Shown: positions 759 to 10,603, counted from the stretch's first letter. The stretch: DNA of 54,525 bases from Bacillota bacterium (GCA_021324295.1 JAJPJJ010000129.1:1-54525), one strand, 5' to 3'. The notes: generated by a model from the sequence alone, not told the origin. Numbers and translations are program-made.

Positions 759-1406
759 CTACTCCTCCGCCCCGCGCGCGCGCAGTCCGACCGGGGTCAC
801 GAGGTCCCGGATCCGGCGCAGGGCATGCTTCTGCAGGCGGTAGAAGTGCGAGAGACTGATCCTCAGTTCGCCGGCGATGCGGCGCGGCTCCTCCTGGCGC
901 AGGAAGAACCCGCGCAGGATCCGGCGCTCCCGCTGCGGGAGCCGGTCGATCGCCGCGACGATCTGCTCCAGGAGCACGCCGTCCTCGACGGCCGCGAGGG
1001 TCTCGGCGGCCGCGGGGTCCGCGAGACGCTCGAGGGGCGAGTCGTCGAGCGCGCCTCCGACCGCCGTCTCCATCAGCAGGGCCGGCCGCTCGCGGCGGAG
1101 CGCGTTGAGGATCCGGCCGCGGATCCGGTACGTCGCGAACGTGCTGAAGCGCACGCCGCGTCCGGGATCGAACCGCTCCACGGCCTCGATCAGGCCCACG
1201 GTGCCTTCCTGGATCATGTCCATCACGACCGCGTCGCGCAGCCGGAGGTGCATCGCGACCTTGAAGACCAGCGGCTGGTAGGCCTCGATGAGGCGCGCGC
1301 GGCTGCGCCCATCGCCCCGACCCTTGTACGTGCGCCAGAGGCGGGCCTCCTCGCCCTGGTCCAGGAGCGCCACTTTCTGGAGCTCGCGCAAATACTCCGT
1401 GAACAT
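759..1406 (-). CDS. RNA polymerase sigma-70 family factor, short (alternative) type
   Basis: 215 residues. Region 2 is clear: a helix ending in PLVFKVAMHLRLRDAVV, then DMIQEGTVGLIEAVERFDP and FSTFATYRIRGRILNALRRE (core recognition of -10 DNA). Region 4 at about 145-205 has the helix-turn-helix LPQRERRILRGFF...RIAGELRISLSHFYRLQKHALRRI. The stretch between is too short for a full region 3, so it looks like a group 3/4-type factor related to sporulation/flagellar sigmas. An upstream extension in the same frame is possible, but MFTEYLRELQKV fits sigma region 1.2 and has GGGAGCAGGGGG in front, so I start there. It is the next-to-last gene of the S55/TamB unit, which suggests an envelope-related regulon. 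Confidence 0.88.
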   Translation of the reverse strand: MFTEYLRELQKVALLDQGEEARLWRTYKGRGDGRSRARLIEAYQPLVFKVAMHLRLRDAVVMDMIQEGTVGLIEAVERFDPGRGVRFSTFATYRIRGRILNALRRERPALLMETAVGGALDDSPLERLADPAAAETLAAVEDGVLLEQIVAAIDRLPQRERRILRGFFLRQEEPRRIAGELRISLSHFYRLQKHALRRIRDLVTPVGLRARGAEE

Positions 1407-1529
1407 CGATGGCCCCCTGCTCCCACCCCTACAGTATCCGCTCTCGTCCCCGGATGCTCTCCTCGGGCGCCGGCGCACGCCGTGCGCGCCACACGAGCGA
1501 TACGGGGCACCGCGGGGTGCGCGGTTCCT

Positions 1530-5939: not shown

Positions 5940-7760
5940 CTACCGTCCTCCCTCGATCAGGATCGGCGCCTGGAAGCGACCGCGGAGCACCCACGGCGTC
6001 GTCCACGTGCTCGCCGCCCGGCTCATCGCCAGCGGGGCGCCCTGCGGCGACGGGCGGGCCGCGCCGAGGAGCTCCACCACGACGTCCGTATTCTTCTCAC
6101 CCGTCTCGAACGCGTGGAACGCGTCGGTGAGGGTGCGCGGCGGGCCCTGGAACTGCGCGGGCGGCGCCGGCGTGGCAACCGGCGAGGGCGAGGAGGCGCC
6201 GCCCGCACGCACCACGAGGAGCGCCGTCCCGGGCGCGAAGTCCCGCGGGATGGCGAGGTCGACCTCCTGCGTCTGCGGCTCGCCGCGGAACGGCCGCAGC
6301 GTCACCTTGACCTTGAGGGTACTCCCCACGCTCACCGGCCCGGGCGGCATCCGCATCTCGGTGATCACCGCGGTCTGCTGCTGGCTGGTGACCCGCACGT
6401 CCATCGTCATGTCCGCGGGGCCCACGTCGGCGAACTCGTTATCGAACAGCAGGTGCATCGCCTGCGGCACCTCGGCGAGCGCCCGGGTCGCGATGTCGTT
6501 CGTGCTGTAGAACAAATTCTCCCGCACGACCGGATGCCCGAGCGCGCGGCCCCGCAGGGTCATCCGGACCTGCGCCGTCCCCTCGCCGGAGCGATTGAGG
6601 GCGCGGGCGATCGCTTCCTGCGCGCCGAGCATCACGAGCGTGGGGGCGATCTCCTTGCTGTTCACGACCTGGAAGTTGAAATCGCGAGACGTGCCGTCGT
6701 CGGCATCGGTCACCCGCACACGCACGCCGAAGACCCGCGGCAGCACGCCGATCGTCCCGCCGATCGCCGCCGGACGGTCTTCCGAGATCGTCCCGACGAG
6801 CGCCCCGGCGGCTCCGACCTTCATGTTCTGCTGCTGCCCGCGCACCGTCTGAAAGATCGTCGCGTTCGTCAGGAGGTAGCCGGCGTGGCCGACCTCGGTG
6901 AACGGGTGGCCGAACGCCAGGATACGGCTGCCGTCCCGGTAGGTCAGCGTGCCGATCGCGTACGCGGAGATCTCGCCCTGCATGAGCCCCACCCCGATCG
7001 CGCTGCCCGGCACGAGCGGGAGCGACGCCGGCAGGCGCACAGGCCCGCTGCCCTGCATCGGCACGACGCCCATCGGCGCGAGCACCCGCGCCAGCGCCTC
7101 GCGCGCCGGCTCGCCGAACCCGGACACGAACAGCGGGGTCGCGGCCGGGGTGGCGACGAGCGCATCGGGCGGGGACGCGACGGGGCCCGGCCGCGACGCC
7201 ACGAGGATGCGGCGGATCTCGCGGTGGCCGACGCGCAGCGGCGCCACCGCGTGCAGCCGGCCGCCGGGGGCGCGGGCCGCGGCCCGCGGCGGCAGGTCCC
7301 TGAGCATGTCCTCGATCGGCGTGAACAGGCCGATCATCGGATCGGCGGCCTGGAATGTGTAGCTGAACGCGCCGGCGAGCCGCCCCTCGAGGTAGATCGG
7401 GCTGCCGCTCATCCCGGCCGCGAGGCCGCCGGCGCTCTCGAGCGCCGGGCCGGACGCGCGAAACAGAACGAGGTCGCCCGCCGGCCCCGCGTTCTTCAAG
7501 ATCCCCAGCACCCGGACGCGGAACTCCGAGATCGCCGTGCCGAGCACGACGGTCCTGCCGATCCCGGCCATGCCGGGCCGGATCGCGGAGGCCGGCAACA
7601 GGCCCGCCGGCATCGAGGGAGCGGCTCCGAGCGGCGGGACCGGAGAAGCCACGCCCATCGCGGCGGCCGCGATGCATCCCAGGACGGGCCGGAGCGCCGC
7701 ACCCCGGGAGCGGGCCATACGGGTGCGGGGCGCTGGAGCGAGGGGTGGTGTCTTCGGCAT
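5940..7760 (-). CDS. SpoIVB (peptidase S55)-family secreted protein, permuted order, copy 1
   Basis: 606 residues. An N-terminal signal/anchor (PVLGCIAAAAMGVASPVPPL) precedes GMSGSPIYLEGRLAGAFS with the S55 nucleophile Ser at about residue 118, followed by TPIEDML. The partner motif GTLTYRDGSRILAFGHPF, holding the His at about 285, comes afterwards. In Bacillus SpoIVB the GH motif comes first and GMSGSP last, so the halves are in swapped order here. The position of the SpoIVB catalytic Asp, shortly before GMSGSP, reads SGP. The C-terminal half is beta-rich and unassigned. An ATG with GAGAG five bases ahead is preferred; a GTG twelve bases upstream is possible. Role inferred: envelope protease or scaffold working with TamB. 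Confidence 0.85.
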   Translation of the reverse strand: MPKTPPLAPAPRTRMARSRGAALRPVLGCIAAAAMGVASPVPPLGAAPSMPAGLLPASAIRPGMAGIGRTVVLGTAISEFRVRVLGILKNAGPAGDLVLFRASGPALESAGGLAAGMSGSPIYLEGRLAGAFSYTFQAADPMIGLFTPIEDMLRDLPPRAAARAPGGRLHAVAPLRVGHREIRRILVASRPGPVASPPDALVATPAATPLFVSGFGEPAREALARVLAPMGVVPMQGSGPVRLPASLPLVPGSAIGVGLMQGEISAYAIGTLTYRDGSRILAFGHPFTEVGHAGYLLTNATIFQTVRGQQQNMKVGAAGALVGTISEDRPAAIGGTIGVLPRVFGVRVRVTDADDGTSRDFNFQVVNSKEIAPTLVMLGAQEAIARALNRSGEGTAQVRMTLRGRALGHPVVRENLFYSTNDIATRALAEVPQAMHLLFDNEFADVGPADMTMDVRVTSQQQTAVITEMRMPPGPVSVGSTLKVKVTLRPFRGEPQTQEVDLAIPRDFAPGTALLVVRAGGASSPSPVATPAPPAQFQGPPRTLTDAFHAFETGEKNTDVVVELLGAARPSPQGAPLAMSRAASTWTTPWVLRGRFQAPILIEGGR

Positions 7761-7875
7761 GCCATCTCTCACATCGCTTTCGTCTAATCTGCTCTGTCCC
7801 TTATATCAGGCGCGCCGCCGTCGCCCTATCGCCCTCGGGCGCCGCGCCCGCGGGGATCCGCGACCGTCACGGCCC

Positions 7876-9705
7876 CTACTTCACCGTCATGGGGATCTGA
7901 AACCTGCCAAGCACCACCCACTCGCTGGGGATCGAGGTCCCGGCAGGCGCCTCGAATCCCGGGTTGGCATTGCTGCCGACCGCGGTGAGCACCGCCTCGG
8001 GCACCAGCTCCACGATCACGTCCGTGTTCTTTCCGTCGTGCTCGAACCGATCGATCGTCTCCTCCAGCGAGCGCGTTCCCGGTGGAGTTCCCTCCTGCTG
8101 CACGAGCTGCTGGAACTGCTGGTCGGGCGGCAGCGGGTTCGAGGCGTTCAGCCAGCCGGCCGTCCCGACGAGCAGAAACGCCGGCCCGACCGGAAAGTCC
8201 CGGGGCACCGTGAACTCCACCTGGCGCGAGACCTCAGCGGGCTGCTCGTACGGCCTCACCCGCACCGCCACCCGGACCTGCCCGCCGCGGCTCACGGTCC
8301 GCACGTCGGGCCGGGCGGCGACGAGCAGCGCCGTGTTCGGCCTGGAGCGCACCGCGATCTCCACGGACATGTCGATGGGATCGAGGTCCCGGAAAAAGTT
8401 GCCGAACAGCAGTTGGGTCGCCTCGGGGACGTCCAGCACCGAGGCCGTCCCGATGTCGCCGATATCGTACGCGAGATCCTCGCGGACGATCTCGTGGGGA
8501 ACGCCCCGCGCGCGCAGCGCGATGCGAACCTCCGCGGAGCCGCCCGCGACGCGGTCCAGGGCCTTCTGCACGAGACTCAGCACCGCCATCGGCACCAGCC
8601 CCTCCGCCAGGTCGGGCCGCCGGATCACCTGGGCACCCAGCTCCTTCGCCCGCCCCCGGTCCTCGTCGTGGACCCGCACGCGCACCCCGAAGGTCCGCGG
8701 GAACCGGCCGATGACGCCTCCCACGCCCACGGCCCGGTCCTGCGCGACCGTCCCGAGGAGTCCCCCCAGGCTCCCCTCCTTGAACGGAAAGTCGAGCGAG
8801 CGGACGACCGTGTCGATCCAGGCGCTGGTGAGCAGCATCGAGACGTCGCCGGCGCCCAGCAGCGGGTGGCCGAAGCCCAGGATCAGGTCTCCCCGCCGGT
8901 ACGTGACCGTCCCGATCGCGCCGACCTCCACGTCTCCGCGCACCAGCTCCACGCCGAACGAGCTTCCCGGCTCGATCGGCGGCGCCGGGAACTCCTTCCG
9001 TCCGCCGTATCCCTGCCGGGGGCTGATGTTGTACCGGCGCAGCGTGCGCGACAGCACGGCCATCGCCGCCGGGGTCACCCCGGATGCGAACACCGGGACC
9101 GCGACGGGCGCGACGGCGGCGACCTGCGGGAGCGGATGCGCGTTGTAGGCCGCGGCGTCCGCGGGCGAGTCCATCACGACCACGCGCGCGATCGTCCCGG
9201 CCGGGGTGGGGATCGGCGGGGATGCCTCGTACGTCCGCGGGCGCTCTCCCCCGGCCGCCGGGCGGCCGGGGGAGAGCGCCCGCAGCATCTCCTCGATTGG
9301 CGTGGCGAGACTGAGGTCGGCATCCGGCCCGGCGAAGTGGTACCCGTAGCTGAGCGCGCCGATGATGCGGCCGTCGACGTACAGCGGGCTGCCGCTCATG
9401 CCCGACGCCGTCCCCCCGGCCGCTTGGACGGCCGGCCCGCTGACGCGGAACAGGATCAGGTCGGTCGCCGGCCCCCCGTGCAGCACCCCGAGAATCCGGA
9501 CCGCGAAGCGATCGATCGTCGTGCCGTGGACGACCGTCAGCCCGTACCCGGTCATGCCGGCGCGCACGCGGGAGAGCGGGAGGATCGGCGGCGCGGGGGG
9601 GTCCCCGCGGATCTGACTAGATCCCGCCGGCCCTGCCACGAGGCCCATCGCGCCCGCCAGGCAGACCGCCAGCAGCGCCCCGGCTGCCCGTCTCGGCGTC
9701 AACAC
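7876..9705 (-). CDS. SpoIVB (peptidase S55)-family secreted protein, permuted order, copy 2
   Basis: 609 residues, a paralogue of the next gene with the same architecture. Signal peptide LLAVCLAGAMGLVAGPAGSS, then RVSGPAVQAAGGTASGMSGS (Ser about 104), then GTVTYRRGDLILGFGHPLLG (His about 280) and a long beta-rich C-terminus. The Asp expected before GMSGSP is again replaced by Gly. The reading frame is open further upstream, but the GTG chosen has an excellent GGAGG five bases away and begins directly at a signal peptide; an ATG 27 bases upstream is the alternative. The two copies share length and motif spacing but differ clearly between motifs, so the duplication is not recent. Confidence 0.84.
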   Translation of the reverse strand: MLTPRRAAGALLAVCLAGAMGLVAGPAGSSQIRGDPPAPPILPLSRVRAGMTGYGLTVVHGTTIDRFAVRILGVLHGGPATDLILFRVSGPAVQAAGGTASGMSGSPLYVDGRIIGALSYGYHFAGPDADLSLATPIEEMLRALSPGRPAAGGERPRTYEASPPIPTPAGTIARVVVMDSPADAAAYNAHPLPQVAAVAPVAVPVFASGVTPAAMAVLSRTLRRYNISPRQGYGGRKEFPAPPIEPGSSFGVELVRGDVEVGAIGTVTYRRGDLILGFGHPLLGAGDVSMLLTSAWIDTVVRSLDFPFKEGSLGGLLGTVAQDRAVGVGGVIGRFPRTFGVRVRVHDEDRGRAKELGAQVIRRPDLAEGLVPMAVLSLVQKALDRVAGGSAEVRIALRARGVPHEIVREDLAYDIGDIGTASVLDVPEATQLLFGNFFRDLDPIDMSVEIAVRSRPNTALLVAARPDVRTVSRGGQVRVAVRVRPYEQPAEVSRQVEFTVPRDFPVGPAFLLVGTAGWLNASNPLPPDQQFQQLVQQEGTPPGTRSLEETIDRFEHDGKNTDVIVELVPEAVLTAVGSNANPGFEAPAGTSIPSEWVVLGRFQIPMTVK

Positions 9706-10186
9706 CGTTTCCTCCGGCTCGCGGTTGCACATCGCAGTTCCCCGTACCCCAGGCGACAGACGCGGTGGGGACGCGAAGGCCGGCGCTCCGCGTGCCATAG
9801 GAGCCGATTCGACCGGAGGAACCGAAGGCCCCGACGGGGTCGAGACCTTCGAGCGATCCCCCGCGGTCGGTGTCGGGACCACCGCCGGGCCGAATGCCCC
9901 GAGGGATCGAGGCCTTCCGCCGATGCCGATGGTCCAGGCCGAGACCGGACTGCGCTCCGGGCCGCCCCGCCGCGCCCCCCTCACCGCCCGACGCCGACGC
10001 CGCCGCGCACGGAGTCCGATCGCGCGCGAGGCGCGGCCGCCACCCGCTCGTAGTCTCTCTTATGCCCGCAGATGGGCGATCCCCTGCCTGCCCCGCGGCC
10101 GGATCCCGCCATCAGGTACGCCGCACAAACGACGCGAGGGGGACGTCCTGCCCCCCTCGACGCGCCTCTCCGCCGGGCCGCGGCCG
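9706..10186. other. Intergenic leader between the barrel-sandwich gene and S55 copy 2
   Basis: About 480 bases with no convincing gene; the open frame on the minus strand lacks a protein-like pattern before the signal peptide. It holds the hairpin at 9823-9851. No -35/-10 pair is convincing on the minus strand, so S55 copy 2 may be read from the promoter ahead of the small upstream gene. Confidence 0.4.
9823..9851. repeat. Hairpin in intergenic leader
   Basis: Outer arms CGAAGG/CCTTCG with an inner CCCC-GAC-GGGG stem. It is preceded by TCGACCGGAGGAA (9809-9821), the same 13 bases that lie on the minus strand of the large inverted repeat near 49.8 kb. No T-run follows on either strand. Confidence 0.45.
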
Positions 10187-10495
10187 CTACGGCTGGATCA
10201 CCACGACGGGGTCGCCGGTGTTGACGTGGTCGCCCGGACTGACGAGCACCCGCACCACCTTGCCGTCCACCGGCGCGCGCGCCGCCGGGACGGCGCCGCC
10301 CGTCGAGGTACGCACGTACACCAAGATGTCCCCCTGCTTGACGGTCTGACCGACGGCGGCCAGGTTGAGCGGCAGCACCTGGCCGGACAGCGCGGAGGGA
10401 ACCACCCGGTCGCTCTGCGCCTGCGCCGCCGTGTCTACGGCCGCGAGCACAAGGCCCGCGAGCACGAGCCCGACGATCCACCGATGCCGAGCCAT
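10187..10495 (-). CDS. Small secreted barrel-sandwich (lipoyl/biotinyl-like) protein without attachment lysine
   Basis: 102 residues: a signal peptide (IVGLVLAGLVLAAVDTAAQA) and then almost nothing but one barrel-sandwich hybrid domain. Its two half motifs are VGQTVKQGDILVYV and GKVVRVLVSPGDHVNTGDPV. The hairpin between them lacks the (A/V)MKM or DKA motif that carries biotin or lipoate, so it cannot be a cofactor carrier of the usual type. It resembles the hammerhead domain of HlyD-type adaptors or of LysM/M23-linked envelope proteins. Strong GAGGAGGGGG ribosome site. It has its own consensus promoter and is the first gene of the unit leading to the S55 proteins and TamB, so an envelope role is inferred. 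Confidence 0.75.
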   Translation of the reverse strand: MARHRWIVGLVLAGLVLAAVDTAAQAQSDRVVPSALSGQVLPLNLAAVGQTVKQGDILVYVRTSTGGAVPAARAPVDGKVVRVLVSPGDHVNTGDPVVVIQP

Positions 10496-10573
10496 GCCGT
10501 TCCCCCTCCTCGTGCGTGTGCGCGGGCGGGCTCCCCGCCGCGCTCCCACCATCCCGGAATACCGGATTAGATC

Positions 10574-10603
10574 ATTATAGCGACGGGGGAGCCGCGCTGT
10601 CAA
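10574..10603 (-). promoter_or_regulatory. Consensus sigma-70 promoter for the barrel-sandwich/S55/TamB unit
   Basis: -35 TTGACA at 10598-10603 and -10 TATAAT at 10574-10579, 18 bases apart, read on the minus strand. The promoter lies inside the 3' end of wecB, and the wecB stop codon TAA is part of the TATAAT box. Transcription would start near 10567, giving a leader of about 70 bases. Confidence 0.8.

Follow-up and report, generated by a model that had tools for sequence, protein, structure and literature searches.

A SpoIVB-related family of putative secreted serine peptidases with exchanged barrels, encoded beside TamB and MlaEFD genes

Known S55 peptidases and the two proteins of the window

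Chymotrypsin-fold proteases run His-Asp-Ser, an order also found in HtrA, DegQ and DegP, where PDZ domains follow the protease. SpoIVB (MEROPS S55, PF05580, TIGR02860) consists of a PDZ domain, a His barrel and a Ser barrel in this order, with the motifs GTLT...GH and GGI.QGMSGSP and the invariant residues Thr393 and Asn290. The crystal structure of SpoIVB from 2025 (9LNF) placed Asp363 about 24 Å from His236, and Thr393 was proposed as the third catalytic residue (PMC12502668). A SpoIVB domain of unknown role was also described in Vpar_0521, an outer-membrane-fraction protein of the non-sporulating, two-membrane bacterium Veillonella parvula. This protein, reportedly conserved across the diderm Firmicutes, is described as combining an N-terminal SpoIVB domain with DUF1090 (PMC5491611).

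We analysed a 54,525-nucleotide stretch of DNA from a Bacillota bacterium (GCA_021324295.1, JAJPJJ010000129.1:1-54525), here called the window, which encodes two tandem S55-related proteins, P1 and P2, directly upstream of a tamB-like gene. The features discussed below are as follows.

5940..7772, minus strand: P1, rearranged S55 protein of 610 residues read from GTG at 7772, with a signal-peptide-like N-terminus
7278..7607, minus strand: Ser barrel of P1 (residues 56-165), equivalent to the C-terminal barrel of SpoIVB by hhalign and VIA
7398..7415, minus strand: GMSGSP motif of P1 with the presumed nucleophile Ser122 (codon 7407-7409)
7032..7277, minus strand: linker of P1 (residues 166-247) from the Ser barrel to the His barrel
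6738..7031, minus strand: His barrel of P1 (residues 248-345), equivalent to the N-terminal barrel of SpoIVB by hhalign and a separate model
6903..6911, minus strand: GHP motif of P1 (FGHP) with the presumed catalytic His289 (codon 6906-6908)
6777..6779, minus strand: Asp332 of the (Q/E)DR motif (EDR in P1), proposed third catalytic residue of P1, at His+43
5943..6737, minus strand: C-terminal beta-rich region of P1 (residues 346-610)
7876..9732, minus strand: P2, tandem paralogue of P1 with about 41% identity, read from ATG at 9732 in a frame open to 9984
9385..9402, minus strand: GMSGSP motif of P2 (Ser codon 9394-9396)
8866..8868, minus strand: presumed catalytic His codon of P2
8737..8739, minus strand: Asp361 codon of QDR in P2, proposed third catalytic residue
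1530..5930, minus strand: tamB-like gene (Pfam TamB, E 1.6e-46), separated from the stop codon of P1 by 9 bases

P1 could alternatively start at either of two ATG codons (residues 5 and 19), and the numbering of Ser142, His318 and Asp361 in P2 refers to the frame read from 9819. In both proteins, the residues follow one another as Ser, His and Asp and not in the linear His-Asp-Ser order of the PA clan, the His lying 167 residues after the Ser in P1 and 176 in P2. The initial annotation had proposed, from the two proteins, that the GMSGSP motif precedes the GHP motif and that the halves are circularly permuted. Its residue numbers agree with ours once the start codons are allowed for (P2 having been counted from GTG at 9705), and the usual flanks are present as it described, with GTLTY/GTVTY before GH and TPIEDML/TPIEEML after the Ser, comparable to GVHIEWML in SpoIVB. 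The permutation itself was borne out by the profile-profile alignments with shuffled controls, the predicted folds and the split between canonical and rearranged forms described below; every relative examined had the swapped order and not that of SpoIVB, well past anything that chance would give.

P1 and P2 thus carry the GH-motif His and the GMSGSP Ser of S55 peptidases, with the His-before-Ser order of the barrels reversed in both proteins and in all the relatives examined. The PF05580 scores of 45.2 and 26.6 bits (cut-off 25) come mainly from the Ser half, the best stretches covering only profile positions 116-210 and 126-192 near each N-terminus, and the TIGR02860 SpoIVB equivalog scored 34.1 and 26.5 bits against a cut-off of 305. 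Neither protein has a Pfam PDZ match, and the layout of HtrA/DegP, a protease followed by PDZ domains, is likewise absent. P1 and P2 were the sole SpoIVB-type proteins found in the window's own genome.

Homology and distribution of the rearranged halves

As a reference, we aligned 20 canonical SpoIVB proteins from genomes that also carry the rearranged form. With hhalign, the rearranged Ser half matched the C-terminal half of SpoIVB (score 119, E 5e-20) and left the N-terminal half unmatched, and the rearranged His half matched the N-terminal half (score 37.5, E 1.5e-5, 79 columns) and left the C-terminal half unmatched. Column-shuffled controls reached at most 23.2, and for each half none of 200 attained the observed score. 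Taken singly, isolated His halves matched PF05580 more often than any other family (20 of 110, with a best E-value of 0.0022). Both barrels are thus homologous to those of SpoIVB, with which the family also shares the GTLT...GH and GGI.QGMSGSP motifs, the conserved Ser and His and the predicted secretion. The rearranged family differs from SpoIVB by having the Ser barrel first, no PDZ domain, an invariant Asp at the position of the Asn and extra C-terminal domains, and by its presence in lineages without detected canonical SpoIVB.

A tree of the Ser halves parted the canonical and rearranged forms by one branch with a support of 100/100, and for this reason the sequences fit one rearrangement event. 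In this unrooted tree, the canonical order is most simply taken as ancestral, since His precedes Ser in the other proteases of the PA clan. Profile comparison of the linker, the post-His region and the C-terminal region gave no second Ser barrel or PDZ remnant above shuffled scores. A doubled SpoIVB profile matched the two halves separately, with no continuous alignment over the junction, because the linker has no SpoIVB counterpart. A sequence search of the PDB with the His-half profile returned chance matches only and missed 9lnf.

The swapped order recurs in about 180 relatives, which belong to at least four phyla. Full-length relatives with 33-61% identity occur in 40 of the 43 genomes of the window's phylum, where the tandem arrangement seen here is frequent. 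A contig scan of named genomes gave 281 relatives, 80 of which were kept, among them Halanaerobiales (Orenia, Halanaerobium, Natroniella), many Bacillota MAGs, Riflebacteria and Synergistetes. In the phylum to which the Synergistetes MAG belongs and in that of the Riflebacteria, PF05580 gave only partial (Ser-half) matches, in 102 of 120 and 32 of 39 genomes, respectively, and a Bacillota-wide sample contained about 103 full-length canonical matches together with partial ones in 29 genomes. Both forms were present together in about 21 of 26 genomes carrying the rearranged form, chiefly Bacillota; by this coexistence in the same genomes, the two are separate paralogues. A permuted form that is old, common to several phyla and coexistent with the ordinary one makes it possible to compare both within the same genome.

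Predicted fold and the putative catalytic triad

The AlphaFold model of P1 (residues 56-610; mean pLDDT 89, pTM 0.86) predicts two six-stranded barrels, one with the His and the other with the Ser, as in the PA-clan fold. The Ser barrel (model residues 1-110) superposed in VIA on the C-terminal barrels of DegQ, DegP, trypsin and SpoIVB, with a Z-score of 9.3 against DegQ (3pv3, residues 128-243) and of 8.1 against SpoIVB (9lnf, residues 312-416; rmsd 2.4 over 103 residues). Modelled alone, the His half reached a pLDDT of 92.5 and formed six strands; the His follows strand 3, and strands 5 and 6 flank the Asp of the DR motif. His57 and Asp102 of chymotrypsin occupy the same topological places. 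Foldseek ranked 9lnf third for the His half (probability 1.00); for the whole protein it was uninformative except for 9lnf at rank 9 (probability 1.00, rmsd 2.4, 103 columns). The isolated His barrel retrieved with VIA mostly the second barrels of trypsin-type proteases and superposed on C- and N-terminal barrels alike, owing to the likeness between the two barrels; it was accordingly recognised as the His barrel mainly from its sequence. The predicted layout is thus a Ser barrel, a linker of about 80 residues, a His barrel and further beta domains, with the PDZ domain of SpoIVB missing. The two barrels, belonging to one chain or to two, would come together to give a normal active site.

The conservation of the three residues was examined in 52 members chosen by PF05580, that is, not on the His half or the Asp: Ser was present in 52, His in 51 and Asp in 51. 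The invariance of GMSGSP in the contig-scan set is partly built in by the search pattern, which contained GMSGS. Among the rearranged relatives, the His is kept in 109 of 110, with Thr in L114 as the exception, and the Asp in 110 of 110, lying at His+43 in 119 sequences and at His+44 in 9. One divergent frame, L222, lacks the His-half motifs.

The initial annotation had read the Asp just before GMSGSP as replaced by Gly, and the proteins as having no Asp. That Asp is indeed absent, the corresponding position, Asp363 of SpoIVB (D377 of L141), being conserved in the canonical proteins aligned and either Ser or Gly in the rearranged family. The conclusion drawn from its absence does not hold: because Asp363 lies so far from His236 in SpoIVB, its loss says nothing about activity, and a different Asp, 43-44 residues after the His, is invariant in the rearranged family. 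The position of Thr393 is Thr in 20 of 20 SpoIVB proteins and Ser, Gly, Ala, Arg or Thr in the rearranged family, in which the combination of Asp363 and Thr393 is not found. Conversely, the position of the family Asp is Asn in 20 of 20 SpoIVB proteins, a pairing taken from the family-to-SpoIVB alignment, with Asn290 numbered by gapless alignment. The idea that SpoIVB might keep an Asp of its own at His+45 was rejected; the loop there is variable and the conserved counterpart is the Asn.

The invariance of the Asp, set against the variable Thr393 position, makes Ser122, His289 and Asp332 the likely, though putative, triad of P1. The triad would then use the DR-motif Asp and not the Thr proposed for SpoIVB. 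By analogy with chymotrypsin, the family Asp (Asp332 in P1, Asp361 in P2) would lie at the Asp102 position. Which residues are catalytic in SpoIVB is disputed, and the related family draws attention to this position, which is Asn in SpoIVB.

The S55 halves and the PA fold were known already. In the open-licence literature searched, we found no naturally permuted chymotrypsin-fold protease and no prior account of the permuted S55 arrangement, the triad shift or the TamB/Mla pairing, although such accounts may exist elsewhere. Natural circular permutation has reportedly been found among papain-like peptidases, which are cysteine peptidases of another fold (PMC10318531). Of the published proteins, Vpar_0521 comes nearest.

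Neighbouring genes and the proposed function

The gene order glmU-prs-GT4-wecB-lipoyl-S55-tamB is kept in the window's phylum, and a TamB or AsmA-like gene directly follows the S55 gene in Orenia, other Halanaerobiales and several Bacillota MAGs. In a Bacillota-wide sample of 119 genomes, the rearranged form occurred in 22 of 24 TamB-bearing and 7 of 95 TamB-less genomes (Fisher p 7e-16, in a test that ignores shared ancestry and treats related genomes as independent). TamB lay 3.5-10 kb downstream on the same strand, measured from match to match, in 18 of these 22 genomes. The S55 gene is followed by genes for MlaE, an ABC ATPase and MlaD in Riflebacteria (L127, L132) and in one Synergistota genome (L237). 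Accordingly, the rearranged S55 gene stands directly upstream of TamB/MlaEFD lipid-transport genes in several phyla. The link is not universal: most of the Synergistota genomes inspected have the gene next to prfA and not to an envelope gene. In Veillonella, TamB and MlaEFD act against each other in phospholipid trafficking, according to a study that does not mention SpoIVB and, in the passages considered here, names no peptidase partner for them (PMC10665443).

We consider it probable, with good though not full confidence, that the P1/P2 family represents a circularly permuted, secreted S55 serine peptidase with a closed two-barrel Ser-His-Asp site that acts on the TamB/MlaEFD pathway, its activity being predicted. 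Given its conserved residues and its usual place beside genes for outer-membrane lipid transport, the rearranged protein is probably a working cell-envelope protease, and most likely, as predicted, a secreted serine peptidase with a part in outer-membrane lipid homeostasis. The N-termini read as being of the secretion type, and the gene order suggests that the enzyme would act in the periplasm of two-membrane bacteria, a location that it would share with HtrA, DegQ and DegP. Its substrate may be a component of the TamB (AsmA-like)/MlaEFD machinery, or a client handled by it, which would be cleaved or trimmed. To our knowledge, the regulation of TamB and MlaEFD is poorly understood, and the family offers a candidate protease partner for both. 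A more far-reaching reading, to which we give somewhat less than even credence, sees a natural circularly permuted chymotrypsin-fold peptidase that kept Ser-His-Asp while SpoIVB lost the Asp, and that serves as a dedicated regulator of TamB/MlaEFD lipid transport in two-membrane bacteria outside Proteobacteria.

The genomic neighbourhood might also reflect the mere clustering of envelope genes, in which case the protein would be a TamB-independent housekeeping protease of the envelope with DegP/DegQ-like quality control. The frequent position beside prfA in Synergistota and the 7 Bacillota genomes with the rearranged form and no detectable TamB fit this explanation, which we nevertheless judge unlikely, as the gene directly adjoins TamB in an operon-like manner in distant phyla, and mlaEFD in others, a more specific pattern than mere clustering would produce. 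How the barrels meet bears on a further alternative, namely an active site formed only between chains (P1-P1, P2-P2 or P1-P2), the permutation being a built-in domain swap and the activity depending on assembly. The linker is long and differs in length between members (Ser-His spacing of 134-219 across the family), and the tandem pair is retained in several genera; both would suit such an assembly, which the single-chain pTM, suggestive of a defined monomer arrangement, and the many genomes with one copy only render improbable.

The initial annotation had also offered a non-proteolytic role, and a folded scaffold or pseudo-peptidase for TamB or Mla could indeed dispense with the PDZ domain, with the His that is Thr in L114 and with the His-half motifs missing from L222. 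Pseudo-enzymes usually lose at least one catalytic residue. Here, about 98-100% of members, drawn from at least four phyla, retain each of Ser, His and Asp, as an active enzyme would, and this makes a scaffold improbable. Chance convergence, that is, unrelated barrels with short matching motifs and no permuted S55 protein, might be suggested by the weak similarity of the His half alone to SpoIVB (E about 0.002 at best for single proteins), but it is highly improbable and already largely refuted at the profile level by the match specifically to the SpoIVB N-terminal half, well above the shuffled maximum.

Returning to the neighbours of the proposed peptidase, another genome of the Bacillota sample (L240) has an Omp85 gene next after the rearranged S55 gene.

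Genes flanking the S55 pair and tamB in the window

Two further genes of the window border the S55 genes and tamB on either side:
10187-10603, minus strand: biotin/lipoyl-like (HlyD-type) protein of 138 residues, secreted-looking, located between wecB and the S55 genes
759-1478, minus strand: sigma-70 family factor with regions 2 and 4, following tamB

The biotin/lipoyl-like gene keeps the same place throughout the phylum, with wecB on one side and the S55 genes on the other, and the order of tamB followed by the sigma-70 factor is retained in most of the phylum members for which the flank was read.

Neighborhoods in Orenia and Synergistota

The P-ring and L-ring of the flagellum are required only where an outer membrane is present. 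In the Orenia locus (L073, 56-3845), the S55-tamB pair comes directly after genes for the flagellar rod and for both of these rings: flgF/G-type, flgA, flgI, flgH and a rod-binding gene. Among Synergistota, the peptide release factor gene prfA resides directly upstream of the S55 gene in all four genomes with the upstream gene checked (L235, L236, L237 and L238). Within the stretches checked, L237 is the one genome of these with mlaEFD downstream of the S55 gene.

Exceptional records and an altered putative catalytic residue

Rearranged S55 proteins were also found in records titled Aneurinibacillus and Ectothiorhodospiraceae (L091 and L089), which is surprising for such names; L091 also carries TamB. 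Both records are probably mislabelled or contaminated MAGs. Two genomes of the Bacillota-wide sample (G256 and G297) contain TamB and lack the rearranged S55.

In one relative (L114, 3944-4282), the presumed catalytic His is replaced by Thr, with GMSGSP and the Asp both retained. This protein may be an inactive member, or the substitution may reflect a sequencing error.
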